From the IMG/VR virus record IMGVR_UViG_3300050821_018738, positions 1 through 39,074 of that record: 39,074 nucleotides of DNA; one strand, 5' to 3'. This DNA is from a virus. This document shows, piece after piece, positions 1,519 to 38,419 of this stretch; the stretch's first letter is position 1, and the number at the start of each line of letters is the position of its first letter. Position numbers and translations under genes: made by a program. The notes under the pieces are model-generated. The model worked only from the letters and a program-made list of their open reading frames with translations, did not search any database and was not told the DNA's origin.

Positions 1519-4401
1519 ATGTCACTGCGCATAAAAGGCATGACGAATGCCGACGCTGCTTACAGGTATTTCCTGGAGCACTACTACAGGCCGGGCGAGG
1601 AACGGGGGTTCTGGTATGGGAAGTTGCGTGATCGCCTGGAGATGGGGCGCACGATCACCAAGGAAGATTTTCGGGCCGTGCTGAATAACCGGACGCCGGG
1701 TAATCCGGCGGAGTACCTGACTCAACGCCAGAACGAAAAACGCTGGAAGACGGTGTGGGAAAAAGATGAGGTAACCAAGAAATGGGTCGAGGTGCGGAGG
1801 GAGGTTGCCAATCGACGGATTGGTACGGATTGCACGTTCAGTCTGACAAAAGAGCAATCCACGTATCTGGAAAAAACGAATGATCAGATCATGTACGTCA
1901 TTGCCAAGCAGGCCCTAATGGAGCGTCTGGACGCCATTGAGAGCGATCTTCAGACAAGGGTGAGGAAAGGCTATGTCCAAGATCTTAGGGACGCTCCCGA
2001 GACGTTGTGGGCGGTTTTCGAGGATAAGGTGGGGCGCCCGGTGGACGGACAGGTTGATCCCCATCGCCATTGGCATTGCATTTTGCCCAACGCAGTTTGG
2101 GACGGCGTAGAGGAGGAAATTAAAGCAGCCGAACTCGGGCGACTCTACGCCGAGCATGCAGCTCACGAGGCGATTTATCACGCTCGGATCAATGAGTTGC
2201 TGATCGAACAAGGGTATGGATTCCGGAGGACAGAGAAGGGGGCGATGGAGTTGACGGTGTTTCACCCGGACGAATGCCGTGTATTCTGCAAGCGGACGAT
2301 CGAGATCGAGGCGTTGGCGGCGAAACTGCACAAGGAAATGATGGGCCGGGCGGTGGCGATTGTGGAGGCTGCGGCTAAGAACGGAATCGAACGCGACGTC
2401 GAGAGTGAGTACGCCAAACTCAAAGACGAACTGGGTGAAAAGTGCAGATCAGGGAAAGGTGAGGGGATTCACAAGCCGGGAACGCCTGAGTTTCACGAGG
2501 CCCTCGCTAAGCAAATGAAGCGAGGCCGGTGGGAAGAGATAACGCAAGAAAACGCTCGCAACGGCGATCGCGTAAACTTCCTGACTTCGGAAGTTGCGAA
2601 GGCGCAGACGATTCACCATGCGTTTGAGGGGAAAAGCCGAGTTACTGAGGCAGAACTCATAAAGATTGCCTGCTCATTTTGTGAAGGGGCTATGACCGCA
2701 GACGATATTCAGAAGTTTTGCGCCACGGACCCTCGACTGACCCGTAACCCAAAACGCCCAGGCTTGGTTACGACTTTTGCCATAGCCGAGGAGGAACAAA
2801 GGATCATCAACACTGTGATTGAAGGAAAAGGGATCTATACCCCCTTGGTTCGTGTGGGTGATTGGGAGATTCGCGACAAACGCTTGGACGAGTTTCAAAT
2901 TGGAGCAGTGCAGTTGACTTTGGGGACGACCAGTCTCGCGATTTGCATCGATGGGTACACCGGCGCTGGAAAATCGAGGGCGCTCGCTGAAATGTCTCTT
3001 GCGATTAAAGAGTTGTCGGGGCATTCGCCAGTGGTCCTCGCGCCAAAAGGGAAAAATGCAATCGCTCTGGCGAAACACACTGGAGGTGCTGCGTGGAATA
3101 TCGCCGAGTACAAAGTGAATACTCGCCTGCATGTTCAAGACAGCTACATCTTCGTGGACGAGTTCTCCCAAGTCGGCAACGCAGATTGTCAGTGGCTGCT
3201 CGATCACTGCAAACAGAGTCATAATAGGCTGGTGTTCGTCGGAGATTCCACGCAATTCCAGGGGATCAGCAGAGGCGATCCAGTAGCTGACCTACTACGT
3301 GAGGGTCTTATAGAGAGCCGTTCCCTTCACAAGATTTATCGCCAGAAAGATCCGGATGTTCTTGAGGTCGTTACGCATTCCGCGGAAGGCAGGTTCAAGG
3401 AAAGCGTGGATCTCATCAAAGCGCACGATTGGTTCGTGACGGACAACACAGAGTCGGATGTTCGGGCAGCTCTTGTTCGGGATTTAGTGGACCATATCCT
3501 GAAAGAGAAACCCGCTCTGGCGATTGCGATGACACACGAGCACATCGAACAAATCACGAGAGAGGTGCGATCGAAGCTTAAAGAAGCTGGCCATATCGGG
3601 AAAGAAGATTACGAAATAAGATGGCTGAAAGACCTAAAATTCTCAGAGGCCGAGAAGTCAGACCCTGCCAGGTTCTCCCGCGGCATGGTCGTAAAGTTTC
3701 ATCAGCGGTCCAAAGGCGGCTTCGGCTCTGGGGAAACTTGGGCGTTTGAACGCCATGATAACGATCAGGTGACTGTCTCCAGGCGCGGACAAGAGCGCAT
3801 CCTTCCGCCGGAAGCGGCTAAAGCTTTTACGGTCTACGAGCAGGGAACGATGGCGAGTTCGAACGGAGACAAGTTTCTTGTCACAAAAGCGTATCCGGCA
3901 GCAGGCCTGAAAACTGGTGACGTCATCACGGCGAAAGAGATCGACGCTTCGCACATCACGTTGCCCAATGGAAAACAGATCCCCGTTGAGGAAGGGGTTC
4001 ACCTTAGGTCCGGGTACGCGTTCACAGGTTACGTTTCCCAAGGCGACGAAGCTCCAGCGGTATTTCCATTTCTACCGGCGAGCGTAGCTCACATGATCAA
4101 CCAGCGCTCTTGGCACACGGCGATATCGCGTGCGATCAGCTGGTTGAGAGTATATACCAACTGCGTTGAGATCATCGAACAACGGGCGCCAAAGCAGGAA
4201 GACCGAGAGTCCGCATTAAGTCTGATTAACGGTATGGAAGAAAGGAAGGGCGAGCGCGTTCTAGAACCAAAGATCCCCGTCCCAACCAAGACTCCTGAAT
4301 ATACGCCGCTGGTGGATCTGCAGGAATCCGCCCAGCGTTCAGAAATCTACCGTCCCCTGTACGTTCCCGAGGAAGGCCGCGAGCATGAGTTAGAAAGATG
4401 A
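1519..4401 (+). CDS. MobF-family conjugative relaxase-helicase (TrwC/TraI type)
   Basis: A 960-residue protein, close to the length of R388 TrwC. It should nick one strand at oriT, stay covalently bound to the 5' end and unwind the plasmid for transfer. The N-terminal relaxase domain has the expected paired tyrosines (Y15, Y17, Y22, Y23), an RRIGTDCTFSLTK segment near 100-112 corresponding to the RxGxDxTFS region, and a metal-binding histidine cluster H182/H184/H186 in DPHRHWH. The helicase half has Walker A GYTGAGKS at 479-486, Walker B FVDEF at 545-549, a GDSTQFQ motif, and a late GYVSQGDE/HTAISRA region typical of SF1B RecD-like helicases. No clear Shine-Dalgarno precedes the ATG. The stop overlaps the next gene by 4 bp. 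Both enzymatic halves look intact. Confidence 0.95.
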   Translation: MSLRIKGMTNADAAYRYFLEHYYRPGEERGFWYGKLRDRLEMGRTITKEDFRAVLNNRTPGNPAEYLTQRQNEKRWKTVWEKDEVTKKWVEVRREVANRRIGTDCTFSLTKEQSTYLEKTNDQIMYVIAKQALMERLDAIESDLQTRVRKGYVQDLRDAPETLWAVFEDKVGRPVDGQVDPHRHWHCILPNAVWDGVEEEIKAAELGRLYAEHAAHEAIYHARINELLIEQGYGFRRTEKGAMELTVFHPDECRVFCKRTIEIEALAAKLHKEMMGRAVAIVEAAAKNGIERDVESEYAKLKDELGEKCRSGKGEGIHKPGTPEFHEALAKQMKRGRWEEITQENARNGDRVNFLTSEVAKAQTIHHAFEGKSRVTEAELIKIACSFCEGAMTADDIQKFCATDPRLTRNPKRPGLVTTFAIAEEEQRIINTVIEGKGIYTPLVRVGDWEIRDKRLDEFQIGAVQLTLGTTSLAICIDGYTGAGKSRALAEMSLAIKELSGHSPVVLAPKGKNAIALAKHTGGAAWNIAEYKVNTRLHVQDSYIFVDEFSQVGNADCQWLLDHCKQSHNRLVFVGDSTQFQGISRGDPVADLLREGLIESRSLHKIYRQKDPDVLEVVTHSAEGRFKESVDLIKAHDWFVTDNTESDVRAALVRDLVDHILKEKPALAIAMTHEHIEQITREVRSKLKEAGHIGKEDYEIRWLKDLKFSEAEKSDPARFSRGMVVKFHQRSKGGFGSGETWAFERHDNDQVTVSRRGQERILPPEAAKAFTVYEQGTMASSNGDKFLVTKAYPAAGLKTGDVITAKEIDASHITLPNGKQIPVEEGVHLRSGYAFTGYVSQGDEAPAVFPFLPASVAHMINQRSWHTAISRAISWLRVYTNCVEIIEQRAPKQEDRESALSLINGMEERKGERVLEPKIPVPTKTPEYTPLVDLQESAQRSEIYRPLYVPEEGREHELER

Positions 4402-21047: not shown

Positions 21048-21944
21048 TCATGCTGCTGCTTCGAGTAGCGCTTGTTCAGCCCGAGTGTTCAAGATCCAGT
21101 CGGCAGCGTGTTGCGCTTTGCCGGCTGCGTGGACGAACAAGGTTGAATCATTTTTCAAGGTCTTGATCCAAGAGCCGATGTAGGCTGCGGTGTTCTCCTC
21201 GATCACATCGAAGATCTGGCACGTTGCGCACAGATACCCGCTCGTAAGCTCAGCAACAAGCTCCTCTTGCGCGTAAGGCTTCGAGCCGAACTTGGACCAA
21301 GCAGTGTCGCCTTGCATGCGATCGAGACGCGTCCGATGCCCGGTCGCGTGCCCTAGCTCGTGGAAGAGAACCGCATAAAATGATTCGCTGGAACGGAAGT
21401 CTCTCGCGTCTGGCATTGTCACCGTGTCGTCAGACGGGCTGTAGCAACCAGCGGACCCTCCCCTTTGCGGTTCCCCTGTCTCGATCTTTGGCTTGTTCGG
21501 CATGGCGTCCAGAATCGCTTGCGCTGATTCGATCGGGTGAAAGTCAGGAAGCGCGACCGGCTCGGGCTGCTTAACATTCTCCGTCTGTTCAAGATTAAAG
21601 ACGGTGTAGTAGCGAAGCATGGGAATATTCTTGGTTTTACCCGTCTCCTTGTTTTCCGTCTGGAAGAACTTCCAGAACACAACTGGAGTTCCATGCTCGC
21701 CTTTGCGGACGTTTCCGCCTAAGTCGATCGCTTGCTTGAACGAAAGCCAGTACGGCGATTTAAATTCGGTCCCGTAGTTCAAGATCCAGAAATTGCAGCC
21801 GTGATACGGACGATGGCTGACAAGGTTCTGGGCAAACTGCCCAGCTATCGCCCGACCCTTTCTTGGATTGCGCCATGGCACAACGCCTTTCTCAAGCTGT
21901 GCCAGGATTTTGTTGGTCACGATTTCGTAAGTGTCTGATTTCAT
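21048..21944 (-). CDS. ardC: ArdC-like anti-restriction protein with metalloprotease domain
   Basis: A 298-residue protein with the two ArdC domains. An N-terminal ssDNA-binding region (about 1-125) has VPWRNP, HRPYHGCNFW and YWLSFKQAIDLGGNVRKGE, typical of ArdC and of related relaxase-associated proteins. A C-terminal zinc metallopeptidase-like domain has the HELGH motif at 195-199 and EELVAELTS at 227-235, which supplies a further ligand. In IncW plasmid pSA, ArdC protects incoming DNA from restriction and binds ssDNA; here it would act early after conjugation. It lies behind a strong promoter and two small genes. Both domains look intact. Confidence 0.9.
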   Translation of the reverse strand: MKSDTYEIVTNKILAQLEKGVVPWRNPRKGRAIAGQFAQNLVSHRPYHGCNFWILNYGTEFKSPYWLSFKQAIDLGGNVRKGEHGTPVVFWKFFQTENKETGKTKNIPMLRYYTVFNLEQTENVKQPEPVALPDFHPIESAQAILDAMPNKPKIETGEPQRGGSAGCYSPSDDTVTMPDARDFRSSESFYAVLFHELGHATGHRTRLDRMQGDTAWSKFGSKPYAQEELVAELTSGYLCATCQIFDVIEENTAAYIGSWIKTLKNDSTLFVHAAGKAQHAADWILNTRAEQALLEAAA

Positions 21945-25895: not shown

Positions 25896-26048
25896 ATGGA
25901 TTTTCTCCCTTATTTCGGTGGTGTCGTGTCCGGAGGCGCGGTCGGTTTCGCGTTTGCCTGGCACGCAGATTTTCGGCTTCGGTTGGCCTTAATCATTCTT
26001 GGTGTGTCCGGGATGGTTGGGTGCGCCTGGTTCGCGTTGGATCTGTGA
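25896..26048 (+). CDS. Small two-TM protein at the head of the T4SS operon, 50 aa
   Basis: The ATG at 25896 opens a 50-codon frame with two hydrophobic helices: about 6-22 (YFGGVVSGGAVGFAFAW) and about 28-48 (RLALIILGVSGMVGCAWFAL). Its placement just before the pilin gene and directly behind the presumed promoter suggests it belongs to the T4SS operon. It may be a small assembly factor or an entry-exclusion protein. No known family recognised. Confidence 0.55.
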   Translation: MDFLPYFGGVVSGGAVGFAFAWHADFRLRLALIILGVSGMVGCAWFALDL

Positions 26049-26076
26049 AAGGAAAAATAATAGGAAAGTAGGATGT

Positions 26077-26352
26077 ATGATTCACATGATTTCGTTTGAT
26101 TTGTTTGGGATGCTTGCGGCTGTCGCTGCGGGCATGAACGCACTTGCTGGAGTGATCCAGCTAGTCGGATTTATAGCCTCTGGGGGAATGCTTCTGTTTG
26201 CCGGACTTGCTGCGGCCGGGGAGCGGAGCTTGGGAAGCATGAAAGTGGCGCTTATCTGCGCGGGTGTGGCGGCGGCTGCTTTCGCCCTTAGCACCTATTT
26301 GTTTGCCGCTTTTGGTAGCACCATAACGGTCAATCCAACGAACCCGAACTGA
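26077..26352 (+). CDS. VirB2-like pilin
   Basis: A 91-residue hydrophobic protein with an AGGA ribosome-binding site. It has two membrane helices, about 5-37 (FGMLAAVAAGMNALAGVIQL, VGFIASGGMLLFAGL) and about 54-80 (VALICAGVAAAAFALSTYLF), and a short polar loop between (AGERSLG). VirB2/TrbC pilins share small size, two helices and position before VirB3 and VirB4. Without a clear signal cleavage site, identification is by shape and gene order. Confidence 0.72.
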   Translation: MIHMISFDLFGMLAAVAAGMNALAGVIQLVGFIASGGMLLFAGLAAAGERSLGSMKVALICAGVAAAAFALSTYLFAAFGSTITVNPTNPN

Positions 26353-26714
26353 TGCTTGAGTTCAATGAAAATGACTGTGCCAGAGAGGGGAAACCCAGGT
26401 TTTGGGTTTTCCAGGGGCGTTATGCCGCGTTGGTGGTCGTCGGAGCATTTCTATTCTTAATGCTGTTTAAGATCTTGTCGTCTGCCGGCGTAGATTTCTG
26501 GCCAACTGTCGCGGTAAGTCTGATTCCGATGGGTCTGATGGCGCTTTGGGTTACGACCTGTGTGAATGGTAAGGCACCATCCTATACACTGGATTGGTTA
26601 TTGTTCGGCCGGTTCAAACTGAGGTGCTGGATGTTTCGAAACGGGATCATTCAGCGAGCGCCACAATTCAACATCAGGGTCGCTCGGCCTCCTCACCCCT
26701 CCGAATATGTCTGA
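26352..26714 (+). CDS. VirB3-like inner-membrane protein
   Basis: A 120-residue protein between the pilin and VirB4, as expected for VirB3. It has an N-terminal soluble stretch and two adjacent TM helices, about 25-43 (ALVVVGAFLFLMLFKIL) and about 49-67 (FWPTVAVSLIPMGLMALWV), then a soluble tail. VirB3 associates with VirB4 in the inner membrane. The ATG overlaps the pilin stop (TGATG) and its end overlaps VirB4 by 8 bp. Confidence 0.78.
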   Translation: MLEFNENDCAREGKPRFWVFQGRYAALVVVGAFLFLMLFKILSSAGVDFWPTVAVSLIPMGLMALWVTTCVNGKAPSYTLDWLLFGRFKLRCWMFRNGIIQRAPQFNIRVARPPHPSEYV

Positions 26715-29397
26715 GCAGAGTATCCAGCTACCAGATGGGTATTTCTACCAAGGGTACGAAATTTACGGCCATCTCGGGCAAGGGGGAATCATTAGTCGCG
26801 GTTATGTGGCGAGCTTCCCCGACTTGAGCGCTTCAGACCCTCAGGCATATCTGGATCTGCAAACCGATTTGCGAATGATGTTGGCGAGGGTCGGTGCGGA
26901 GGAGCGCATCCAGATTCAATATTTCACCAGCAACGAATTTGGCGAGGACGTGGACCGTTTTGAAGGCAAAACGTTAGCGGCCAATTGTCCGGATATCACC
27001 AGAAGCGTGCGGACGGAACTTGTGGAGCGCTATCGCGATCGGATGCAATCTGGGAAGCTAATTAAGAGCAACGTTAGGATTTTTTTCTCGACGCGCATAG
27101 AGAAACTTCAGACGGAGTCCGGGAAGAGAATCCGAGGGTTTAAGGAAGTTTTCAAAGTGATCGAGCGTTCGTTCGATCAGCGTGCTGTTTACGTTAATCT
27201 GCTTTTAAAAGCCTACGGGGGCGGCATCACGCCGATGGATAACATGGCGCATTACAGGGACAAGGTGGGCTACTGGAGTCCTGCAGCGCTGCCGCTACTG
27301 GCCGGCGAACCTGATTGGTTTCGCACGATCCAAGAGTTGAGCCAGTTCTCGGAAATAAGCCACAGGCAATCTCCCGACCACGGTCTGTGCATCGACGGCT
27401 ATTACTACGGGTTGATGGTTTTCAAGTCGATGCCGGGGCGTACGCGGCAAACGACCATGGATCCGTTTCTTCACCTCGCAATTCCAGGTTTACGGGTGGT
27501 CGTCAACGCCGTGGCGCTCGACGTCGAGAGCGAGATGCGCCATGAAGAGGCGAGGTTTTCCAAGTTGATGTCTAATATAGACGTCAACAATCCGAGCCTC
27601 GTCAGTGAGGTAGGGTTGGATAAGCACCGTGACCGGATGCGCCGGCTGATGTCGGCCCAGACAATCCCCTACTCCTGTCAGATTATCGTTCTGGCACGTG
27701 ATCGTACTGCGGACGGTCTTGATAAGAAGATGGAGGGTGTGCGGGCAGTGATAGCCAAAACTGGTGCTGAATGGCATCGGCCGATGGTCCCGACGAGTGT
27801 CCTGGGCTTCTATAATTGCGGGGTGCCAGGGATCGGACTCTGGGTGAAATATTCCGATTTTTGGCACCGGATAGATGACAAGAATCTCGCCAACATGCTG
27901 CCAACCGGATCTTCGCCGAAAGCGGACCTGGAGCGGGCTGATTGGATCTGTGACAACGATTGCAATGGCTTGATGGGTGGCCGTTTCTTCTCTGGCCAGG
28001 AGCCTCTCCATTGGCTAATTCTCGGAACAACGGGATCAGGGAAAAGCGTTTTAACACAACTGCTTTTGCTTCAGGCCTTGATGTTCCGGCTCGCAGTCGT
28101 GATCGACAATGGTCTGAGTTACGTGGAGACCTGTCGCCGACTCGATCCGCGCAGCCGGCCGCTCATCATCACCTCGAAGGGCGGATATTGTTTTAACATC
28201 TTCGATACTTCAGGCGGTCCCCTTTCCTCTCATCAGAAAAACGCGGCTACGTCGCTTTGCCATCTTTTGGTCGGGAGATCCCAGGACGAGGATCGCGACA
28301 AGCTGCGCCATGCAATCCTTTCTGAAGCCATCTCGGAACTGTACGCTTCGCGATATCGGCGCTGGAGAAATGCGAACCCGGAGATGCATTTTGAGGTTTG
28401 CCAGGAGGCTGCTGCGGCACTCGGCATAACGGATCCGGACGCAGCGTTAGCATTGGACAGGAATCCTGAGACGGAACATCTGACACGCAATCTGGCGTTC
28501 AAATATTTCACTGCGAAGGAATTTCCAACCTTGTCGACGCTGCAGGATTTTTGCACGGCGAACGCTAATCAGAAGGGACCGCATCAGGAGGTTTATGCTG
28601 GTTTGGCCACTCTCCTCCGGCCGTGGTTACGCGGAGGTAATTATGGTGAGTTCTTGGATGGACCGTCAAATTTCACCTTCGGAACCAGCGACATTAAAGC
28701 GGACGATCCGCTGAGAATAGTCCATCTCGAGTTGGGAAAGGTGGCCCAGGATGAGCCTGAACTGCTCGACGTCGCAGGCTTCATCATTATCTCAAGAGTT
28801 TTGGGCCTCATCACATCGATGCCTCGGGATATAGCGAAGCAAATCGTGATCGAGGAACTATCATCATTTCTCGACGTTCCGGATGGCGCGAAGGTCGTCA
28901 AATCCTGTTACCAGACGGCGCGCAAGTACAGCACGCAAATTGTCAGTGTGGCGCAGCAATACTCGGGCATTCTAGATAGCGATTCCAGCGTGGCGAACGC
29001 GATCATTGGGAACTCCTCGGGTTTGTTCCTCTTGCGCAATCAGAATCGTGACGAGCTAAATAGGTTCTCGCAATTCATCAAGTTACCCGAGCCTGTTAAG
29101 GACCGCATTCAGCGATTCCCCAAACCGGAAGACCAGCGCGGCCAAGACGACGCGCATTCGGGTTTTTGTTACGTGTCGCTCACTGAAGCGGAACCGAAAT
29201 TTACGATTGGAAGATTAGTTTTGTCCGACGAGGTGGAGCAGATGACGAGCTCCAGCGGCGTCGATTTTGAGAGGAGACAACATGTTGAAAAGATTCATAG
29301 CAATGGCGACGGCCGCAACGGCAATGGCGAGTTGCTCGACGCCGAAACTGCCAAATACACAAACGGCGAATCAGCAATTCTCAGTGCTCGGCAATAG
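26707..29397 (+). CDS. virB4: VirB4-like T4SS ATPase
   Basis: An 896-residue protein, the usual size of VirB4/TraC ATPases, which power pilus assembly and substrate entry. The N-terminal half is the variable VirB4 domain. The ATPase half has Walker A GTTGSGKS at 440-447 and Walker B IVIEEL at 713-718 (E716/E717), with later arginine/glutamine motifs (VSVAQQYSG, NAIIGNSSGLFLLRNQ) typical of the family. The C-terminal 38 codons are overlapped in another frame by the lipoprotein gene from 29282. Nothing indicates loss of function. Confidence 0.95.
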   Translation: MSEQSIQLPDGYFYQGYEIYGHLGQGGIISRGYVASFPDLSASDPQAYLDLQTDLRMMLARVGAEERIQIQYFTSNEFGEDVDRFEGKTLAANCPDITRSVRTELVERYRDRMQSGKLIKSNVRIFFSTRIEKLQTESGKRIRGFKEVFKVIERSFDQRAVYVNLLLKAYGGGITPMDNMAHYRDKVGYWSPAALPLLAGEPDWFRTIQELSQFSEISHRQSPDHGLCIDGYYYGLMVFKSMPGRTRQTTMDPFLHLAIPGLRVVVNAVALDVESEMRHEEARFSKLMSNIDVNNPSLVSEVGLDKHRDRMRRLMSAQTIPYSCQIIVLARDRTADGLDKKMEGVRAVIAKTGAEWHRPMVPTSVLGFYNCGVPGIGLWVKYSDFWHRIDDKNLANMLPTGSSPKADLERADWICDNDCNGLMGGRFFSGQEPLHWLILGTTGSGKSVLTQLLLLQALMFRLAVVIDNGLSYVETCRRLDPRSRPLIITSKGGYCFNIFDTSGGPLSSHQKNAATSLCHLLVGRSQDEDRDKLRHAILSEAISELYASRYRRWRNANPEMHFEVCQEAAAALGITDPDAALALDRNPETEHLTRNLAFKYFTAKEFPTLSTLQDFCTANANQKGPHQEVYAGLATLLRPWLRGGNYGEFLDGPSNFTFGTSDIKADDPLRIVHLELGKVAQDEPELLDVAGFIIISRVLGLITSMPRDIAKQIVIEELSSFLDVPDGAKVVKSCYQTARKYSTQIVSVAQQYSGILDSDSSVANAIIGNSSGLFLLRNQNRDELNRFSQFIKLPEPVKDRIQRFPKPEDQRGQDDAHSGFCYVSLTEAEPKFTIGRLVLSDEVEQMTSSSGVDFERRQHVEKIHSNGDGRNGNGELLDAETAKYTNGESAILSARQ

Positions 29398-29659
29398 AGA
29401 AAAGGCGATTGCCCGCAATTTTTACGACTTGGGTGCCAGCGACAGTGTAAAGCGCTGGTACTGGGGCGAGATCGAGGGTCGGGATCCGAAACCGGCGAAC
29501 GCGGCGGCCGGTCTCAAGCGGAAGTACGTGACTATTCCGGTCCCGGCGCATACCGATCCTGATGGAACTTTGATTGAGGCGTCGAGTCAGGTCGTGGAAG
29601 TGGTCCAGTTTTGGGCGATGAGCAGGAGCCACGGGAGAACGTTGCTGATCGTCAAATGA
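29282..29659 (+). CDS. T4SS lipoprotein, 125 aa
   Basis: The ATG at 29282 follows a good GAGGAGA site. The first 18 residues are a lipoprotein signal peptide (LKRFIAMATAATAMASCS) with a lipobox-like MASC, so the mature N-terminal cysteine would be acylated. The rest is soluble (LGNREKAIARNFYDLGASDS, SQVVEVVQFWAMSRS). Lipoproteins next to VirB4/VirB5 usually serve as VirB7-like core components or assist VirB5. The gene overlaps the end of VirB4 by 116 bp in a different frame, which is unusually long. It overlaps the next gene by ATGA. Confidence 0.78.
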   Translation: MLKRFIAMATAATAMASCSTPKLPNTQTANQQFSVLGNREKAIARNFYDLGASDSVKRWYWGEIEGRDPKPANAAAGLKRKYVTIPVPAHTDPDGTLIEASSQVVEVVQFWAMSRSHGRTLLIVK

Positions 29660-30480
29660 AAAGACTAGTTCTCTTTTTTCTTATTCTGGCGTCCCAAGTG
29701 TACGCCGGAATTTTGCCCGTGGTGGACTGGACCGCGATTGCGCACGCGATCCTTTCTTATATAAAGCAGGGCGAGCAGGCGATATCGGAAGCTAACACGG
29801 AGATCAACACAAAATTGTCTGCTCTTCGTGAATTGCAGATGCTGGAGAACCAAGTCCTGCAAATGTTGAGAGCGGGAAATCCCCAAAACGTTATCAATCT
29901 GCCCGGGGTCTCCAATATTCAGACGCTCGCGGCCATCTATCAGGCCGCGCAGGAGGATGTGGCGCACTTTGCGTCCCTGGTAAATCCGTCGGGTGCTGCG
30001 TCTAACGCGCATCAGATTCTATCCATCTACGGACAGGCCGCAACGGGGTTCAGCTCCTCGACGTTCAACATTCCGCCTGCTCTCGGATTATTCCAATTCT
30101 CCACTGCTGACTACAACGCGGCGGCCTACACGCAGCAGAAGATCCGAGACTTGAATCAGGAAAAACTCACCCTGACTAAACAACGCGACCAGGCGATACA
30201 ATCCGAGCAGGCCGCGACGGACGTAGAGACCAGGACTCGTTTCCACAACCAAGTGATGTCACTCTCGGCCAGCATTGCGGATATTAATAGCCAGATCCAG
30301 CAAACCGTACAGACGGGCAATCTTCAGCAGCAACAAAATGCGGCTGCGGCAAACATGAGTCGGGCCGCGGCCACTGTTTCAGGCGCATCCTCGTTCGGAG
30401 CGGACGTGAATGCGGGACTCCATTCGGTCAATGCAGTCGCTCCAAATGACTTAAAAATTCCTCAGTGGAGAGGAGAATAA
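29656..30480 (+). CDS. VirB5-like minor pilin protein
   Basis: The ATG at 29656 overlaps the lipoprotein stop. The product, 274 residues, has a cleavable signal peptide (MKRLVLFFLILASQVYA) and is otherwise helical and glutamine/alanine-rich, with long coiled-coil parts: EQAISEANTEINTKLSALRE and TQQKIRDLNQEKLTLTKQRD. VirB5/TrbJ proteins are exported, helical, and adhere at the pilus tip. Position between VirB4 and VirB6 fits. Family sequence similarity is low, so the call is from architecture and order. Confidence 0.75.
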   Translation: MKRLVLFFLILASQVYAGILPVVDWTAIAHAILSYIKQGEQAISEANTEINTKLSALRELQMLENQVLQMLRAGNPQNVINLPGVSNIQTLAAIYQAAQEDVAHFASLVNPSGAASNAHQILSIYGQAATGFSSSTFNIPPALGLFQFSTADYNAAAYTQQKIRDLNQEKLTLTKQRDQAIQSEQAATDVETRTRFHNQVMSLSASIADINSQIQQTVQTGNLQQQQNAAAANMSRAAATVSGASSFGADVNAGLHSVNAVAPNDLKIPQWRGE

Positions 30481-30481
30481 T

Positions 30482-30730
30482 ATGAGACACATAATCGTTA
30501 TACTCTTTGCCGGATCGATGTTTTGTAACCTCTGTTACGACAACTACATGGTGAACCTGCAAGCCGAGCAGATTCGGAGCATCAACGCATCTTTAGCGCG
30601 GTTTCAAGCGGAGAGGGTAGCCCGAGAGCAATCCGAAAACGCCATAAAAAGGGATTTTGGCTCAACGGTTCAACAAATGAACCGCATGCATCCAGATGTG
30701 CAGATAGTTCCTCAATGGATCGAGAAATGA
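30482..30730 (+). CDS. Small exported or membrane-anchored protein, 82 aa
   Basis: The first 20 residues (MRHIIVILFAGSMFCNLCYD) look like a signal peptide or anchor with two cysteines; C15 might be lipidated, but the lipobox is poor. The rest is a soluble helix (QAEQIRSINASLARFQAERV). A small exported protein between VirB5 and VirB6 is where conjugative plasmids carry an entry-exclusion protein (Eex/TrbK), which would block redundant transfer; this is inferred from position only. Confidence 0.6.
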   Translation: MRHIIVILFAGSMFCNLCYDNYMVNLQAEQIRSINASLARFQAERVAREQSENAIKRDFGSTVQQMNRMHPDVQIVPQWIEK

Positions 30731-32115
30731 TCGCGATCCTCGACATTTTCACGCTTGCGCCGGATTTCCAAACGGCGGTACAGAACGTTCATAACGTGAC
30801 TCTGCCGTTTGCGCTTGTGGCCTGCGCAGGCGGCTTAACCATGACCGCGGTTAGAGCGGGTCAAGAGAAGTCGCTTCAGCACGTCTGGCCAACCATATTG
30901 AGAATAGCTTTGGTGGCGCTCTTCCTGATTGACATGCCGGCGATTGCGAATGCGACCGAGCAACTGGTTCTAAGCGTTGAGCAGGCGTCGGGCGTGGGGA
31001 ACGGCACGGCGTTCTCAGATTATATCGCGGCGCTAATGCAGAAGTTCGGGGTGGATTTGAGCGCGCTTAACGGCATCGTCCCGCAGGGTCCGTATGGAAA
31101 TGGTGCGGGGGCAGCGCCTGCTGATGCTCCGACGATTTCGACCTATGGATACGAGAAACCGGGAGATCCGAATTATGATAGCAAGTCAGCACAGGGGATC
31201 GGAGCTTTCGATTTTGACTCGGCACCTCACTCGCTTGTTCCGGGTCAGTCTTTGGCGTTATCGCCAAATTTGACTGCGGGGCTAATCCCAGGACAGCAAG
31301 TGACCGTGAACCTTGCGAACGGCCAAACGATCACGGGAATTTATGCGGATCGAACCGCTAAGACTTTCGACGGCCAGACGCTGACCAGGGTTGATATTTA
31401 TGACCCCAATCAGCAATATAGCGCGCTCTCAGGCGTAGGTGTGACGAGCATTAATGCCGGCGCTCTCCCTCAGGGAGGTAATCCTATCGGGAATTTCTTC
31501 AACGGCTTGATGCATCCTGTGGAAACCGCTGCCATCGGGATTTTCGGGATGGCTGTTTTGTTCCTCTCTTACATTGCCGTCTTTATCTGGTGGGTAATGG
31601 CACTCCTGCAGTCGGTCCTGTTCTATTCCGAAATTGCTGTGGCACCGATCTTTGTCGGTTTTTTGGTGGTGCGCGGTTTTGAGAGCATAGCGAAAGGCTT
31701 CTTGCTTTCTTTTTTCGCCATCTGTTTGTGGCCGATCGCGTTTCTGATCGTGGGTTTGGTGACGAAATTTATCATAGCCCTAGCTCTTAACACCGGCAAT
31801 AACGCAACCATGGGGACGGTGAATGCCCTTGGAATGACCTATTTCTGGTTGGTTGGCTTGGCTGTGTGGGTCATTTTCGGGTCAATTTTCGGGCCGTTAA
31901 TCATATCGAAACGAGTCGTCGCGGGTGCAAGCGGCGTGGCCGACATGATAGTGGGTGCACACTCCGCAGCATACAATGCTGCCCAAGCCGCCTATCGCAG
32001 TGCCGTCGTTGGCGCGAGCGCCGGCAGGAGCAATGGCAGCAACGGTTCAGCGCCTGTTGAAGTAGGCGAGTCCGGACGGCCCAACTATGCGGTCAAACCT
32101 GGAAGGAAGTCATGA
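30727..32115 (+). CDS. VirB6/TrbL-like polytopic membrane protein
   Basis: The ATG at 30727 overlaps the preceding stop (ATGA) and is preferred over 30715. The 462-residue protein has N-terminal membrane segments (FALVACAGGLTMTAV, ILRIALVALFLIDMPAIA), a large soluble periplasmic-type insertion at about 100-255, then five or so more helices to about 415 (FLSYIAVFIWWVMALLQSVL, FFAICLWPIAFLIVGLV, YFWLVGLAVWVIFGSIFG). The basic tail ends with a SNGSNGS linker. VirB6/TrbL proteins form the inner-membrane part of the channel. The insertion is unusual in content but its position fits. Confidence 0.82.
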   Translation: MIAILDIFTLAPDFQTAVQNVHNVTLPFALVACAGGLTMTAVRAGQEKSLQHVWPTILRIALVALFLIDMPAIANATEQLVLSVEQASGVGNGTAFSDYIAALMQKFGVDLSALNGIVPQGPYGNGAGAAPADAPTISTYGYEKPGDPNYDSKSAQGIGAFDFDSAPHSLVPGQSLALSPNLTAGLIPGQQVTVNLANGQTITGIYADRTAKTFDGQTLTRVDIYDPNQQYSALSGVGVTSINAGALPQGGNPIGNFFNGLMHPVETAAIGIFGMAVLFLSYIAVFIWWVMALLQSVLFYSEIAVAPIFVGFLVVRGFESIAKGFLLSFFAICLWPIAFLIVGLVTKFIIALALNTGNNATMGTVNALGMTYFWLVGLAVWVIFGSIFGPLIISKRVVAGASGVADMIVGAHSAAYNAAQAAYRSAVVGASAGRSNGSNGSAPVEVGESGRPNYAVKPGRKS

Positions 32116-32699
32116 CTAATCTGGTTGATGTTTTACGCCGTCGATTTATGCACGTCGTCCTCTGGCAGGGTCTTTTTGTTTTATCTGTCTTATGGGGGCA
32201 TCTGGCAGTCTACCTAAACACTGTTGAGCTGATGAGGCGGATTCACTTCGCGCTGATGAACTCGCGGGATACTTTTTACATCACCGCCGCTGGAGGATTC
32301 GAGACGATTCAGGAAGAACACCTGGAGATGGCTAAGCTTGCCGGTCAAACCTTGCTCAATCGTTCTCCAGACGGCCTGGACAGTCCCGAACGCGTAGATC
32401 GGCTGTTCAATGCCAAATGCGAAGAGCAAGTAAAGACAGACATTGCCGCCGATGCCGATACTTTTAAGATGCAGGGTCTGCACCAAAAGCTCGAGGTCGG
32501 GCATGTGCGAGAGGTCCAGCTTTCTCCTTCGACGGCAGTTGTGGAAGTGAGTGGTCAGCTAATTCGGACAGGATTTATCACGCATTCGGATCAAACCCGG
32601 CAAGTGGTTGTTGATATCCAGATGGTGGCCAATGACGAATTCGAAACGAATCACAAATTCCCGATCGTTGTCTATGCGTATCAGGTGAAGTTTTTATGA
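32112..32699 (+). CDS. VirB8/TraE-like inner-membrane protein
   Basis: A 195-residue bitopic protein with an N-terminal cytoplasmic tail, one TM helix at about 14-34 (VVLWQGLFVLSVLWGHLAVY) and a periplasmic domain that ends in beta strands (VREVQLSPSTAVVEVSGQLI, QVVVDIQMVANDEFE, IVVYAYQVKFL). VirB8 bridges the inner-membrane complex and the core. ATGA overlaps couple it to VirB6 and VirB9. Confidence 0.78.
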   Translation: MTNLVDVLRRRFMHVVLWQGLFVLSVLWGHLAVYLNTVELMRRIHFALMNSRDTFYITAAGGFETIQEEHLEMAKLAGQTLLNRSPDGLDSPERVDRLFNAKCEEQVKTDIAADADTFKMQGLHQKLEVGHVREVQLSPSTAVVEVSGQLIRTGFITHSDQTRQVVVDIQMVANDEFETNHKFPIVVYAYQVKFL

Positions 32700-33652
32700 G
32701 ATATTTGTTAGCGCTAAGTGTTCTGTTCTCCAGTCATCTAGAAGGCCAAATTGTCAGTCGCGTTCTATCTCCTGGAACAGAAATGTCGATCGCGCTCTCT
32801 CCGGGAATAGTGACGGTGTTGAAGTTTCCTTTGGCTGTGAGCGGGGCTTATGGCGGCGGCCTGGTCGCAGTCGATCCGGCGAAACCGGATGCCGCCGCGA
32901 TAGGCCAGATAGCCGTCCAACATCGTCCGGGTTCGCCCATCGTACTTCTGGAACCGCTTATCACAACCGCGCATGTACTGATGACCTGTTTGTGCGGTCA
33001 GAATCTTTACCTGTTTGACCTAAGGGTGTCCCCTACTCCGGACGTGGCTGTGACCTTGCTCGATAAATCTCCTGGAGTTGCGGAGGTGACGCCAAAAGAA
33101 ATCGTGGATGCGCGGCCCAAATACGATCCGGAGTTATTGGTCGGGTTCCTTCGCCGTGCTCGTGATGCTGCTTTACTGAAACCACTCTATCCAGATCTGT
33201 ACGATGGCTATCAAGTGCGGAAGGTGAAATATACGTCCGAGTGTGACGCCTACAAAACGACGGTGACGGAAGTGAACCGCTTTTCGAAAGACGACGCGAT
33301 TGTAGTACGCGGGACAGTGCAAAATAAAACGGATCGTCCGCTGCAATTCGATGGCCGCAGTACAACGATTCAAGTCGTCAACGAAGTTCATCCAGCGAAG
33401 CTCGTGGATGTTCTAGAACCAATTCCGGCAGGCGCTACGGTGCCTATCGACATCGTCATTCAGGGTGATTGGGACGGGTCACGGGCGAACCTGGCGATTG
33501 ACAATGAGATGAGGATCATTCTCCCGTCTGAAGGTACGGTCTGGAGCTTCAAGAACGGCGGCCCTGCTTCAGATTTCAAGGTTCCCCCACCCTTTCAGCC
33601 TAGGCAGATTCCCCTAACCCAGACTGGCAACGCACTGAAGGAGAAGCAATGA
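32696..33652 (+). CDS. VirB9/TraK-like core complex protein
   Basis: A 318-residue exported protein. The signal peptide MRYLLALSVLFSSHLEG leads to a beta-rich N-terminal domain (TEMSIALSPGIVTVLKFPLA, LYLFDLRVSPTPDVAV), a helical linker and a C-terminal Ig-like beta domain (VTEVNRFSKDDAIVVRGTVQ, TVPIDIVIQGDWDG, WSFKNGG). VirB9 binds VirB10 and VirB7 at the outer membrane. Coupled by ATGA overlaps on both sides. Confidence 0.78.
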   Translation: MRYLLALSVLFSSHLEGQIVSRVLSPGTEMSIALSPGIVTVLKFPLAVSGAYGGGLVAVDPAKPDAAAIGQIAVQHRPGSPIVLLEPLITTAHVLMTCLCGQNLYLFDLRVSPTPDVAVTLLDKSPGVAEVTPKEIVDARPKYDPELLVGFLRRARDAALLKPLYPDLYDGYQVRKVKYTSECDAYKTTVTEVNRFSKDDAIVVRGTVQNKTDRPLQFDGRSTTIQVVNEVHPAKLVDVLEPIPAGATVPIDIVIQGDWDGSRANLAIDNEMRIILPSEGTVWSFKNGGPASDFKVPPPFQPRQIPLTQTGNALKEKQ

Positions 33653-34776
33653 GACCGTTTATCTTATTTTTTGTTAAAAAGGAAGGCGTGATTCTCCTGG
33701 TCGTTTTAGCGATCATCGGCATCTGCTACTACGTCGGCAAAGCCAATCGGGAGAAGCAAGCCGCGGAGGCCGCAAAACAGCCTAAACGCGAGCTTGGTCG
33801 TGTCGTCCAGACGCCCAATAGCCAGGATACAGCACCGAAAGAGTCCGAGCTGGAAAGGCGTAACTTAACTCCAGTTAATCATCCTGCCTCACCCGTTCAG
33901 CCCCAGGTTAACCAGGCTGTTGTTTATCATCCAACCTTGGCGGCTTTTGACGAAGAGGTTCCCGTTAGTACGCCGTCGCCAACGCCGACTCCTTCAGAAA
34001 GGGAGCAAGAGGCTTTTCTACCGCCATCGATTTTCATCCCGTGTGTGTTGGTCAACACAGTTGAGTCCAGCCACATTAATACGCCGGTCGTCGGCAAAGT
34101 TGAAAGAGATGTGATTAGGGAAATCGGAGGAGTGCGGCGCGTGATTGTCCCAGCAGGCACGATTTGTAGCTCGTTCGCGCAATCGGGTGCGGTGCGAGAT
34201 CGCATCGAAGTGGCCGGCAAATGGCTCTTTGTGTTCCCGGACGGAAAGTCGTTAACAATCACCGGCATCGCTTGCAATCGCCAAGCCGATCCAAGCACTC
34301 TGCAATTTGGGCAGGAAGACGCAGGTGCCGGCCTTCAGGGTTCAATCCAAGAGTCGAATCACTGGTCTAACGCGCAAGCATTCATCACGCTTTTAATGAC
34401 CGCGACCGTGCAAACGGGTACCGCGGCCGTCAGCGGGATGACATCACGCTTCGGGGGTGGTGGCGTAGGGCTTCCGGACACAACGCCCATCCTGGCGAAG
34501 TATATAGATCAGCTTTGGAACGGTGAAACTGGCGACGGGCGGTTTGTCCAAGTTCTGGCCGGCTCAGAATTTTACGTGTTCCCGTGTGATACTCTCATCC
34601 CTTCCCATCGCTCGGCGGTAGCGAAAAGCCGTGTCGATCCCGGGAACGAATCCGCTCCGTCAACAGTTTCCGGAGATCCTCTGCGGGCGGCGCAAATGGA
34701 GAAAGAGATTTTAAGAGAGAATCAGCCGCAGGTTAGCCCGACTCCGGGGAACCCTTCACCAAATATTAGATACTGA
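33649..34776 (+). CDS. VirB10/TrbI-like core complex protein
   Basis: A 375-residue protein with a short cytoplasmic start, one TM helix at about 13-30 (GVILLVVLAIIGICYYVG), a proline-rich periplasmic stretch (about 75-120) and a C-terminal beta-barrel domain with the VirB10 pattern: IFIPCVLVNTVESSHINTPV, VVGKVERDV, VIVPAGTICSSFAQSG, GKWLFVFPDGKSLTITGIAC, LQGSI and QVLAGSEFYVF. It spans the envelope and senses ATP use. Identification is firm. Confidence 0.88.
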   Translation: MRPFILFFVKKEGVILLVVLAIIGICYYVGKANREKQAAEAAKQPKRELGRVVQTPNSQDTAPKESELERRNLTPVNHPASPVQPQVNQAVVYHPTLAAFDEEVPVSTPSPTPTPSEREQEAFLPPSIFIPCVLVNTVESSHINTPVVGKVERDVIREIGGVRRVIVPAGTICSSFAQSGAVRDRIEVAGKWLFVFPDGKSLTITGIACNRQADPSTLQFGQEDAGAGLQGSIQESNHWSNAQAFITLLMTATVQTGTAAVSGMTSRFGGGGVGLPDTTPILAKYIDQLWNGETGDGRFVQVLAGSEFYVFPCDTLIPSHRSAVAKSRVDPGNESAPSTVSGDPLRAAQMEKEILRENQPQVSPTPGNPSPNIRY

Positions 34777-34784
34777 GGAATTTT

Positions 34785-35408
34785 ATGCGAACCAAAGAAT
34801 TAACTGGCCTTTTGGCCCTGGCGATCTGCTTGAGTGCTTGCGCTGGCAAAGAGACCGTGTATGCGGAAAAGCGCGGGTCTACCATTGTGGTGCATCATGT
34901 CAGTCGCACGCCGAGAGGCACTCGGGATCGCACCGAAAAGCTGGCTACTAGGGCAATGGCGCCTTCGGAGGTGCATAGCTATAGTGTAGGCCGCATGCCC
35001 GATGACAATGGCGGGATGCGCGAGGCGGGAACTTATTACCGGGTCGTGCAAAGCGAGACTTGGGATCTGCGTTTGCCCAAGAGTTCAGGGAAATCCACCG
35101 GCCCTAAAACTGTATTCCCTCCCCCAACCTATTCTCCTCCTCCGAAGGATCAGCGAATAAACGACGCTGTCGCGGATGCTGATGAAGCGAAGCGGGAAGC
35201 GGACGAGGCCAAAGCGAAGGCTGAGCAGCAAGTGACAATCGACAACAACCAGGTCGATCAATTGAGTTCTGAAAATCAGGCACTGCGCGAACAAGTCCAG
35301 TCGGCAATGTCGGCCAAGGGGGCGGGTGCGTCAGTTTCCCCTTCCACCTCACCAGCGGGTCAGGCCGATCCGCTTGTCACTTGGGGGCAGAAGCAAACGC
35401 AGCAATAA
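34785..35408 (+). CDS. T4SS-associated lipoprotein with coiled-coil tail, 207 aa
   Basis: A lipoprotein signal with LSAC lipobox (TGLLALAICLSACAGK) is followed by a beta-like domain (STIVVHHVSRTPRG, SEVHSYSVGRMPD, TYYRVVQSETWDLRLP), a proline-rich linker and a coiled coil (AVADADEAKREADEAKAKAE, NNQVDQLSSENQALREQVQS). It lies directly after VirB10, where some systems keep an outer-membrane anchoring lipoprotein. It is longer than VirB7 and may span to the peptidoglycan. Confidence 0.75.
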   Translation: MRTKELTGLLALAICLSACAGKETVYAEKRGSTIVVHHVSRTPRGTRDRTEKLATRAMAPSEVHSYSVGRMPDDNGGMREAGTYYRVVQSETWDLRLPKSSGKSTGPKTVFPPPTYSPPPKDQRINDAVADADEAKREADEAKAKAEQQVTIDNNQVDQLSSENQALREQVQSAMSAKGAGASVSPSTSPAGQADPLVTWGQKQTQQ

Positions 35409-35418
35409 GGGGCCAATA

Positions 35419-36360
35419 ATGGAGAACCTGCTTTCCCCAATTCCGGGTATCGACGACAAAGAGTTTATTTCTCGTCTCAGTACTCTGGGTGATTTCCTTC
35501 GCGCAAACCTCATAGGGCAAGAGGAAGTAATCACTGCGGTAACCGATCTTCTATGCCGGGCGTTCTGCCGCATGCGGTTTGATGAGCAACCGATAGCCTC
35601 TATCCTGCTGCCTGGACCGACGGGTACCGGGAAGACGTTGCTGGCTGATCTGTGCAATCAGCATTTGTTCAGGACTAGATCACTATTGATGCGTTTGGAT
35701 ATGTCCGAATATTCGACGCCGTCCAGTGTTGATAGGCTGATCGGAGATAAGGATATAGGCTTGTTCGAGAGTTCTTATCGGAAATCTTTTTGCCGCGGGG
35801 TCTTGCTCTTTGATGAATTGGAGAAAGCGGAAGCAAGGGTATTAGACATTCTGTTGCAGATCCTGAGCGCGGCCCGCTTAACCGTGGGAAATGGACAAAC
35901 TCTTGACCTGTCCAAGTTCGTTGTCTTCGCCACGAGCAACATTGGTTCCAGAGTGCTGATGGCTTCTAGAAGCATGGATCGGGAGACAGTCGTTGACCGC
36001 ACCGAGACAGCGGTGGAGTCCGAGATGCGCCCTGAGATTGTCGGACGCTTTGATCTGATTGCCTCGTTCAACAAATTTTCTCATGATGATCTGACGCAGA
36101 TCGCCAAACTGCACATGGAAAAATGTCTGGCGATTATCAATAGCCGCGGGCACGAACTAACTGTGGGCGATGGAGTGTGTGGCTTCATTCAACGCCAGGG
36201 TTATTCAGAAAAGTTTGGTGCTCGACCAATTCGTAACAGTGCGATGCGAATTCTAGGCGGAGCCGTATCGAAAGCTATGCTCGCTAATGGCGGACGCCCT
36301 GTCCGTGGCGTTCTCCAATATGATCGACGGGCGAACAAATGCACCTTGGTGGGTTCGTGA
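35419..36360 (+). CDS. ClpA/B-type AAA+ ATPase in the T4SS operon
   Basis: A 313-residue AAA+ module of the Clp/Hsp100 second-domain type. It has an N-terminal LIGQEEVITAV (31-41), Walker A GPTGTGKT (66-73), Walker B LLFDE (129-133), sensor 1 FATSN (170-174), an arginine finger in EIVGRFD (R210) and a C-terminal small domain with sensor 2 in FGARPIR (266-272). No ClpP-binding or N-domain is seen. The ATG at 35419 follows AAGGGG; upstream starts run into the lipoprotein gene. It is coupled by GTGA to the next membrane protein. VirB11, the usual third T4SS ATPase, is not found, so this may take its place. Confidence 0.88.
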   Translation: MENLLSPIPGIDDKEFISRLSTLGDFLRANLIGQEEVITAVTDLLCRAFCRMRFDEQPIASILLPGPTGTGKTLLADLCNQHLFRTRSLLMRLDMSEYSTPSSVDRLIGDKDIGLFESSYRKSFCRGVLLFDELEKAEARVLDILLQILSAARLTVGNGQTLDLSKFVVFATSNIGSRVLMASRSMDRETVVDRTETAVESEMRPEIVGRFDLIASFNKFSHDDLTQIAKLHMEKCLAIINSRGHELTVGDGVCGFIQRQGYSEKFGARPIRNSAMRILGGAVSKAMLANGGRPVRGVLQYDRRANKCTLVGS

Positions 36361-36722
36361 ACGATTCCCCTTCCCCAGCTTCTCCCCCACTCCGCGAGGC
36401 TACTAGCTTCCTGACGATCTTCGCCTTCCTTTTTGGGATCGGCTGTTACTTTGCCGCGGTGAATCACGTGCCGGTGTTCGATGAATGCCTATACGGCATC
36501 GCGTCCATTCTGTACGGATGGTTTCCAATCCTGGCCGGGTTAAAGATCCCGCAGGCTGCGCAGATACTGAGTGCACTCGCGGCGGCCGTCATGTTCTTCG
36601 CTGCGGGCGTCCCGTTTACTCCAACGATTGCTCGGATGTGCGGCCCGCGGATCGGCGCCTTGGAAGGCCAGATGCGATTATTTCAGAAGAAGCGAAAACC
36701 TAGAACAGGAAAATTCAGTTAA
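36357..36722 (+). CDS. Small multi-TM membrane protein, 121 aa
   Basis: It begins with a GTG overlapping the AAA+ stop (GTGA, 36357-36360). Three hydrophobic helices lie at about 18-38 (ATSFLTIFAFLFGIGCYFAA), 44-60 (ECLYGIASILYGWFPIL) and 66-86 (AQILSALAAAVMFFAAGVPF), and the tail is basic (RLFQKKRKPRTGK). Tight coupling to the Clp-like ATPase suggests it is its membrane anchor or partner. Not a recognised VirB protein. Confidence 0.65.
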   Translation: MNDSPSPASPPLREATSFLTIFAFLFGIGCYFAAVNHVPVFDECLYGIASILYGWFPILAGLKIPQAAQILSALAAAVMFFAAGVPFTPTIARMCGPRIGALEGQMRLFQKKRKPRTGKFS

Positions 36723-36985: not shown

Positions 36986-38419
36986 CTACCTGGATTGCGG
37001 AAATTGAGCCGTGATCCAGCGTTCCCCGTCCCAGAGCCTTCCAGCCTGGAACAAGATCCCGTCTACGGTGTAATTGTTCTTTTTCCCGCCATTACGCAGA
37101 GTCAGAAATTCTTTCTCGCTGCAGCTCGGCAACTCCACCTCGGCCATGCTCGTACTGAACACGGATGACCCTCCGGTGGCCGAGCTCGACAGCGACGGGC
37201 GGAAAATAGTTTCTTTCGCGATAAGCCGGGAAGCCCACGCATTGGTGTCAGGTTCGTCATTCCTTAAGAATAGCTTCGTCACCAAGTTCCCCAACGCTTG
37301 ATTGACGCCCAGCTTCGCTTGTTCCCCTCCCCCGTAGCTTTTAATGAAGCCCGGTAAATTTTGCGCCAATCGAACATTGCAGATTCCGTGTTTCCGGCAC
37401 GTGCTGAAGAAATTTGCATCGTGATCTGTCGAGAAGAAATTCGATTCGTCGGCGAAGACAAAAACGGGCCGGTCGCATGGAGGATTGTAGACTCGCCTCA
37501 TGGCCGCCCGCATGAAGCTTACCAGCCAGATTAACGCACAATATTGTCCCGCTTCTTCATGCACGGAAACGGGCAGATCAACTATGATTACCTTGCCACC
37601 AAAACAGTCATCGGGCGTTAGGTTGGTCTCGTTTGAGAATAGCGCGGCCATATTTCCGCGGCTGAGCGGGCCGCTGACCAGGCCAGCGTACTCGGCATCT
37701 ATCGGAGCCCGGTTCTTGTCCGCCATGGCAGCTCGGATTTGGAACCAGTAATCGTGAACTTCCGTTAACTCGGGGTGATCCGGATTCTTGGCTAACGCCC
37801 TTCTGAACAGATCGTAAAAGTAGCTGGTCTTCCTCCATTCCAGGTCTATGCCTTGTTCCACCGTCTTGGGTGCGGATTGGAGAAGCCGGCTGATCGCCTT
37901 GAGTGTCAAAGGCTCTTCCGCCAGGAGCAGCAAGCTGAGCGAGGATCTGATGAGAGCCTTTTTTTGAGGCGTGAACCAGGTCAAATCGTTGCCTGTCGGT
38001 GGCGTCCTGTGCGGGCTACAGACGTTCAGCAACAAATTTACGAGGTTATCAATCGCGTCGAGTCCGCTCGCTTCCTGCTTTGATTCGTGGCCCAAGAAAT
38101 TCAGTCGCCACGGCTGGTCGAGGCCGAATATCCGGATGTCCGCTTCCCGGCCGGCGTCCCGCATGCGCTGCACCCAAGTGTGTTTTTCCTCCTTTTCGTA
38201 GCACAAAACCAGCCCACCAAAGCCATGTTCCAAGAGCTTGCGTGAGAAGCCTGCGGCGGGGCCCGAAGTTTTGCCGCTGCCCGTACTACCCAGAATTAAA
38301 AGTCCCTGGTAGGCGTCTTCGAGTGTCCACGGCTTGCCTGAAAAGTTGCAGATCTCCAGGTCAAGAGGCCAGCGGCCGGCGACAGCCTTGGGTTTGCGTT
38401 GCCAGGGAAGAGTGATCAC
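36986..38419 (-). CDS. VirD4/TraG-type coupling-protein ATPase, lacking an N-terminal TM region
   Basis: A 477-residue P-loop ATPase of the type IV coupling protein family, which brings the relaxase-DNA complex to the T4SS. Walker A is GSTGSGKT (44-51), Walker B is FVFADES (320-326; D324, E325), and conserved regions such as VIIVDLPV and NLVTKLFLRN (378-387) follow. The GTG start overlaps the upstream stop (GTGA). The usual two N-terminal TM helices are absent; the upstream junction-spanning gene encodes a one-TM protein, which may supply the membrane anchor. It ends 25 bp from the terminator hairpin. Confidence 0.9.
   Translation of the reverse strand: MITLPWQRKPKAVAGRWPLDLEICNFSGKPWTLEDAYQGLLILGSTGSGKTSGPAAGFSRKLLEHGFGGLVLCYEKEEKHTWVQRMRDAGREADIRIFGLDQPWRLNFLGHESKQEASGLDAIDNLVNLLLNVCSPHRTPPTGNDLTWFTPQKKALIRSSLSLLLLAEEPLTLKAISRLLQSAPKTVEQGIDLEWRKTSYFYDLFRRALAKNPDHPELTEVHDYWFQIRAAMADKNRAPIDAEYAGLVSGPLSRGNMAALFSNETNLTPDDCFGGKVIIVDLPVSVHEEAGQYCALIWLVSFMRAAMRRVYNPPCDRPVFVFADESNFFSTDHDANFFSTCRKHGICNVRLAQNLPGFIKSYGGGEQAKLGVNQALGNLVTKLFLRNDEPDTNAWASRLIAKETIFRPSLSSSATGGSSVFSTSMAEVELPSCSEKEFLTLRNGGKKNNYTVDGILFQAGRLWDGERWITAQFPQSR

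Follow-up and report, generated by a model that had tools for sequence, protein, structure and literature searches.

Why does the operon of a divergent T4SS that lacks VirB11 carry, next to its end, a gene for a Clp-type AAA+ ATPase? The locus lies near the end of the window, that is, the whole 39,074-nucleotide stretch of DNA that we analysed, which is IMG/VR record IMGVR_UViG_3300050821_018738. The original prediction held that a Clp-like unfoldase, coupled to a three-TM protein, could power substrate unfolding or pilus dynamics here in place of VirB11.

The IMG/VR record carries a 97-nt exact direct terminal repeat at both ends, which closes the plasmid into a circle of 38,977 bp; because it is closed, the absence of VirB11 is not an edge effect. 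Besides the T4SS operon, its genes encode a MobF relaxase, a VirD4-like ATPase, a ParA-like protein and an AAA_25 protein, which makes the element a conjugative-type plasmid and not a phage. The features that matter here are as follows.

1519-4401, + strand: MobF/TrwC-type relaxase-helicase (Pfam and NCBIfam matches)
25999-26352, + strand: putative VirB2-position small multi-TM protein, from position and hydropathy only (no family match)
26352-26714, + strand: putative VirB3-position small TM protein directly 5' of VirB4, from hydropathy (no family match)
26707-29397, + strand: VirB4/TraC-type ATPase (Pfam TraG P-loop, 1.3e-16; best NCBIfam match TraC-F-type, 9.7e-23)
29611-30480, + strand: putative VirB5-position secreted protein with a hydrophobic segment at its N-terminus (no family match)
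30715-32115, + strand: VirB6-like polytopic membrane protein (hydropathy; TAV5 match, 2.5e-7)
32112-32699, + strand: VirB8/TraE-like protein (weak TraE match, 0.012; TAV5 match, 3e-5)
32696-33652, + strand: VirB9-like protein (matches in T. mucosus, 2.9e-8, and TAV5, 4.7e-4; no family match)
33649-34776, + strand: VirB10-like protein (T. mucosus match, 5e-20; the TAV5 homologue matches Pfam TrbI, 4.5e-10)
34785-35408, + strand: lipoprotein-like gene in the VirB7/TraV position, 10 nt 5' of the AAA+ gene
35419-36360, + strand: standalone Clp/ClpB-D2-type AAA+ ATPase, 313 aa, with the pore-1 loop deleted
36339-36722, + strand: membrane protein ORF with three hydrophobic segments, 127 aa, overlapping the AAA+ gene
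36986-38419, − strand: VirD4-like coupling ATPase with no predicted TM segment, convergent with the T4SS operon

We also observed an ArdC/zincin-like antirestriction-type gene (21048-21944, − strand) with ~45% identity to plasmid homologues from several phyla. The VirD4-like ATPase finds its best plasmid relatives on elements exemplified by a Skermanella plasmid, which carries phage-type genes too.

The operon had been described as having VirB2-B6 and B8-B10 homologues, a description that our searches bear out for VirB4, VirB6, VirB9 and VirB10 and, weakly, for VirB8, while VirB2, VirB3 and VirB5 are assigned by position and hydropathy only. The VirB4 assignment is solid (Pfam, NCBIfam), that of VirB10 rests on its TAV5 homologue, which scores above the cut-off for Pfam TrbI, and those of VirB9 and VirB6 rest on homology to the other two plasmids discussed below (TAV5 and T. 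mucosus). A single-sequence structure model of VirB8, which is of low confidence, has a TM helix followed by helices and strands. The placement of the AAA+ gene within this operon was confirmed. The genes from VirB6 through VirB8 and VirB9 to VirB10 overlap by 4 nt each, gaps of 8 nt and 10 nt flank the lipoprotein gene, and the AAA+ gene, the penultimate gene of the operon, then runs into the 127-aa membrane ORF. Given the 4-nt overlaps and the tight spacing, the AAA+ gene and the membrane ORF appear to end one packed transcription unit. The sequence AAGGGG lies a few bases 5' of the AAA+ start codon, and scans for promoters and terminators returned nothing beyond chance level.

The AAA+ ORF begins with an ATG at 35419, and its stop ends at 36360. 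Its product matches Pfam AAA_2 (2e-29) and ClpB_D2-small (1.6e-9), and its NCBIfam match to ClpB (2.9e-52) covers the D2 half only (model positions 555-833) and lies far under the cut-off. An AlphaFold2 model built with 21 Clp relatives reached a pLDDT of 91 and a pTM of 0.88, and the solved structures closest to this model are those of ClpB NBD2 (Foldseek 1.5e-27; VIA Z about 32-33, 28-32% identity). By sequence and predicted fold, then, the gene product is a standalone Clp/ClpB D2 ring domain. It retains Walker A (GPTGTGKT, 66-73), Walker B (VLLFDE, 128-133), sensor 1 (ATSN, 171-174), an arginine finger (R210) and sensor 2 (GAR, 267-269), so that the full set of motifs originally claimed is present in its catalytic part. 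The pore is another matter: when the window protein is aligned with about 35 D2 domains of Clp type, the ClpB pore-1 loop RLIGAPPGYVGYEEGG is seen to be deleted from it, leaving RLIGD-KDIGLFESS. The N-domain, NBD1 (D1) and M-domain are all absent from the 313 residues, and no ClpP-docking loop (IGF/IGL/VGF) occurs between sensor 1 and the arginine finger (stretch 171-213, ATSNIGSRVLMASRSMDRETVVDRTETAVESEMRPEIVGRFDL). With its ATPase motifs kept and the other Clp parts gone, the protein would be a Clp-lineage ATPase, yet one without the defining features of ClpB or of a ClpP partner. A deletion of ~4 residues across the GYVG pore loop was also seen in Clp D2 domains of Patescibacteria-type genomes (loci L013-L015, L022-L024, L026-L028, L030, L032), a point against the T4SS-dedicated role that we favour below.

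The missing pore loop bears directly on the predicted role as an unfoldase. The plasmid also encodes a large MobF relaxase, which, like the Clp-type ring fold, would suit an enzyme that unfolds the relaxase, or other proteins, before export. However, none of the three T4SS-linked AAA+ proteins, that of the window and two described below, has an intact aromatic pore-1 loop, the loop being either deleted or degenerate, and the window protein has neither an N-domain nor an adaptor domain. To our knowledge, export of the F relaxase needs no such Clp-like protein. Substrate unfolding seems improbable to us on these grounds, and a ring that remodels the T4SS inner-membrane complex is the most likely role.

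To place the system among its relatives, we turn to a set of 72,556 plasmids, only two of which carry this T4SS subtype: those of Opitutaceae TAV5, a cultured bacterium of the termite gut, and Termitidicoccus mucosus. The sole match to the window VirB4 over at least 80% of its length in this set is on TAV5 plasmid CP007054.1 (22% over 93%, 1e-39), and the sole match to the window VirB10 is on T. mucosus NZ_CP109797.1 (5e-12); used as a query in turn, the T. mucosus VirB10 retrieves itself and TAV5 only. Both plasmids (2/2) carry a standalone Clp-D2-like AAA+ gene with a degenerate or absent pore loop. The TAV5 gene (350 aa, L006:1049-2101) lies on the same strand as VirB8-B9-B10, 3.9 kb upstream and with other genes between, while the T. 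mucosus gene, which is read in separate frames, is divergent from VirB4 at a distance of about 1 kb, an arrangement found in each copy of a region that occurs twice. By comparison, a Clp-like match of any kind occurs on 2,229 of the 72,556 plasmids (about 3%), and among the matches listed by name full-length ClpK, ClpB and ClpL predominate. A link between the AAA+ protein and the T4SS is thus supported by co-occurrence in both of the other plasmids of the subtype, in a sample of three plasmids of which two come from one termite-gut bacterial family.

Several peculiarities of the two relatives deserve mention. The TAV5 AAA+ protein is permuted, with the ClpB D2-small domain N-terminal (residues 23-75) and the AAA large domain following (157-312), which may be a real permutation or the remnant of a tandem duplication. 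The T. mucosus T4SS region (L050, L051) is present twice on NZ_CP109797.1 with most long genes frame-split in both copies, and these splits may be sequencing errors or decay. Type IV pilus/T2SS-type genes (GspE/PilB-type, PilT, T2SSF and prepilin-like) lie near the T4SS in both Opitutaceae plasmids (L046 and L047 of CP007054.1; L050:37478-45580), where they perhaps encode a second, thin pilus.

The membrane ORF does not share this distribution. Its three hydrophobic segments agree with the predicted three-TM protein, and an alternative start, GTG at 36357, overlaps the AAA+ stop (GTGA). It has no family match in Pfam or NCBIfam and no match among the 72,556 plasmids, and no comparable ORF adjoins the AAA+ gene in the TAV5 or T. 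mucosus plasmid. Of the gene pair to be sought in other T4SS operons, the AAA+ member recurs in 2/2 of the other plasmids of the subtype and the membrane member in 0/2; the membrane partner is not conserved.

The loose linkage in TAV5, with its roughly 3.9 kb of other genes between, would be consistent with an AAA+ gene that is unrelated cargo, a stress, defence or regulatory gene that came to sit behind the T4SS operon by chance. ClpK, ClpB and ClpL genes are common plasmid cargo, and PADLOC weakly matched the protein to the ClpB-like DolB and the candidate PDC-M37B. Cargo Clps, however, are two-ring proteins with intact pores, and the DolB-type match is a generic AAA+ match with no Dodola partner family in the adjacent ORF. 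Moreover, the window gene is packed into its operon with no promoter space between it and the preceding gene, and chance acquisition leaves unexplained why an AAA+ gene occurs in 3/3 plasmids of the subtype and adjoins VirB4 in T. mucosus. We consider a cargo gene unlikely.

Whether the three AAA+ proteins descend from one T4SS-linked ancestor is less clear. All three share the ATPase motifs, the sequence RPEI (usually RPEF or RPEL) before the arginine finger and the lack of GYVG, and those of the window and TAV5 further share AAR-T..NG-T-DLSK...FATSN. In a phylogenetic tree these two group at 89/90 on long branches, but once T. mucosus is included the three do not group, nor does the AU test reject their grouping (p 0.21), and the window protein is 35.5% identical to the TAV5 AAA+ versus 35.8% to an ordinary ClpB. 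Because the tree, the AU test and the identities leave common descent unproven, a Clp D2 module may have been recruited repeatedly.

Beyond the plasmids, close-relative scans found no relatives of the AAA+ protein, VirB4, VirD4 or the relaxase in viral contigs and none of VirB4 in genome contigs. In genome contigs the AAA+ query retrieved, for the most part, long Clp proteins of two-ring size, none beside T4SS genes of this type, and the motif T-x-D-L-S-K...F-A-T-S-N was absent from the viral contigs and 297 genomes. A VirB4 profile, which retrieves the T. mucosus record that had no part in building it, found no match in 294 genomes sampled from a planctomycete's phylum or in 398 from that of an alphaproteobacterium, the search being centred on these phyla and not on Verrucomicrobiota or Acidobacteriota. 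MobF plasmids of planctomycetes carry neither this type of T4SS nor such an AAA+ gene, and the phage Clp-like genes at L036-L038 are without T4SS genes. We found no published report of such a T4SS component in the open-access literature, and a report elsewhere is possible; the terms 'Clp' and 'unfoldase' are absent from a 2025 review of T4SS nomenclature (PMC12857230).

The absence of VirB11, as predicted, holds for the whole closed plasmid, on which a diverged VirB11 was looked for with PF00437 (T2SSE) and TIGR02788; no match to either was found, for TIGR02788 even at E<=10. A recognised VirB11 is likewise found in neither (0/2) of the other AAA+-bearing plasmids: the TAV5 T2SSE matches were rejected as VirB11 since their scores place them with GspE/PilB and PilT, and the T. 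mucosus T2SSE-type ATPases bear either a PilT/PilU annotation or an unspecified T2SS/T4P/T4SS one. VirB11 is needed in most Gram-negative T4SSs, the F system excepted (PMC12857230); the F T4SS is tabulated without VirB11 (PMC12624023), and the 2025 review finds the function of F-type systems without it curious (PMC12857230). The best NCBIfam match of the window VirB4 is TraC-F-type, under the equivalog cut-off. As the F T4SS works without VirB11 and this VirB4 is closest to the F-type TraC, the absence alone leaves no gap that needs a substitute, and the original wording 'in place of VirB11' is not supported. We do not file the system as MPF_F because profile comparisons of the window VirB8, VirB9 and VirB10 with F TraE, TraK and TraB gave nothing significant; none of the F-specific TraU/W/F/H/N was recognised among the ORFs scanned.

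The main rival to our reading is nonetheless a VirB11-like one, in which an AAA+ hexamer docks under VirB4 and aids pilin extraction and the switch between pilus and DNA modes without unfolding anything. VirB11 is missing from the closed plasmid, the T2SSE ATPases of TAV5 (GspE/PilB- and PilT-type) and T. mucosus (unclassified or PilT-type) include no recognised VirB11, and VirB11 rings dock on VirB4 without threading, just as the AAA+ protein has lost its threading loop. Against this stand the F precedent and the TraC-like VirB4, and also the fold and lineage of the AAA+ protein, which differ from those of VirB11; docking on VirB4 is conjecture. We regard such a stand-in as rather unlikely, and relaxase unfolding as less likely than this.

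Rather, we hypothesize that the AAA+ protein is a third, cytoplasmic, non-threading and Torsin-like ATPase dedicated to a divergent F-like, VirB11-less T4SS, a functional reading that we hold about as strongly as we doubt it. The protein would be a single-ring AAA+ derived from a Clp/Hsp100 D2 module, probably hexameric and ATP-hydrolysing, that would no longer thread polypeptides because the gripping pore loop is gone. Its ATP-driven assembly or conformational change could, as in Torsins, remodel a partner at the inner-membrane complex, for which VirB4, VirD4 and the pilin machinery are candidates, as is the neighbouring membrane protein in this plasmid. The step served might be assembly, disassembly or switching of the T4SS, probably assembly or disassembly. 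More tentatively, this could be an undescribed class of VirB11-less T4SS in which a Clp-derived non-threading AAA+ is the standard third ATPase, recruited in several bacterial lineages. If a T4SS subtype does have its own Clp-derived ATPase, another ATPase can join the machine, and TAV5, being cultured, offers a host in which its role is testable.

Compared with known systems, the window protein would resemble VirB11/T2SSE ATPases in being the third hexameric ATPase of a T4SS but differs from them in AAA+/RecA lineage and domain make-up. The T4SS itself shares with F-type (MPF_F) systems a TraC-like VirB4, a weakly TraE-like VirB8, a MobF relaxase and the lack of VirB11, whereas the F operon compared has no annotated Clp-like gene. 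Relative to ClpB/Hsp104 NBD2, the fold (TM 0.82-0.88 to the AAA+ model, VIA Z up to 33) and catalytic motifs are alike, but the window protein stands alone, without N-domain, NBD1 or M-domain and with the pore-1 GYVG deleted. Human Skd3/CLPB likewise has a Clp-type single-NBD2 ring (VIA Z about 29), at a lower identity of 25%; Skd3 differs in carrying an ankyrin domain and in having a ring that works as a disaggregase. No Torsin chain was among the 50 entries listed in the VIA structural comparison of the AAA+ model, a list that speaks neither for nor against kinship; the likeness to Torsins such as TorsinA is drawn from their described features. Torsins are Clp/Hsp100-lineage ATPases with a single ring domain and no aromatic pore loops that act through dynamic assembly with membrane cofactors (PMC5425593). 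They are, however, eukaryotic and reside in the ER lumen; a further difference is that the window protein keeps its own arginine finger. If our reading is right, the window protein would be a bacterial Clp-lineage ring that kept its ATPase motifs and dropped threading, a combination so far best known from the eukaryotic Torsins.
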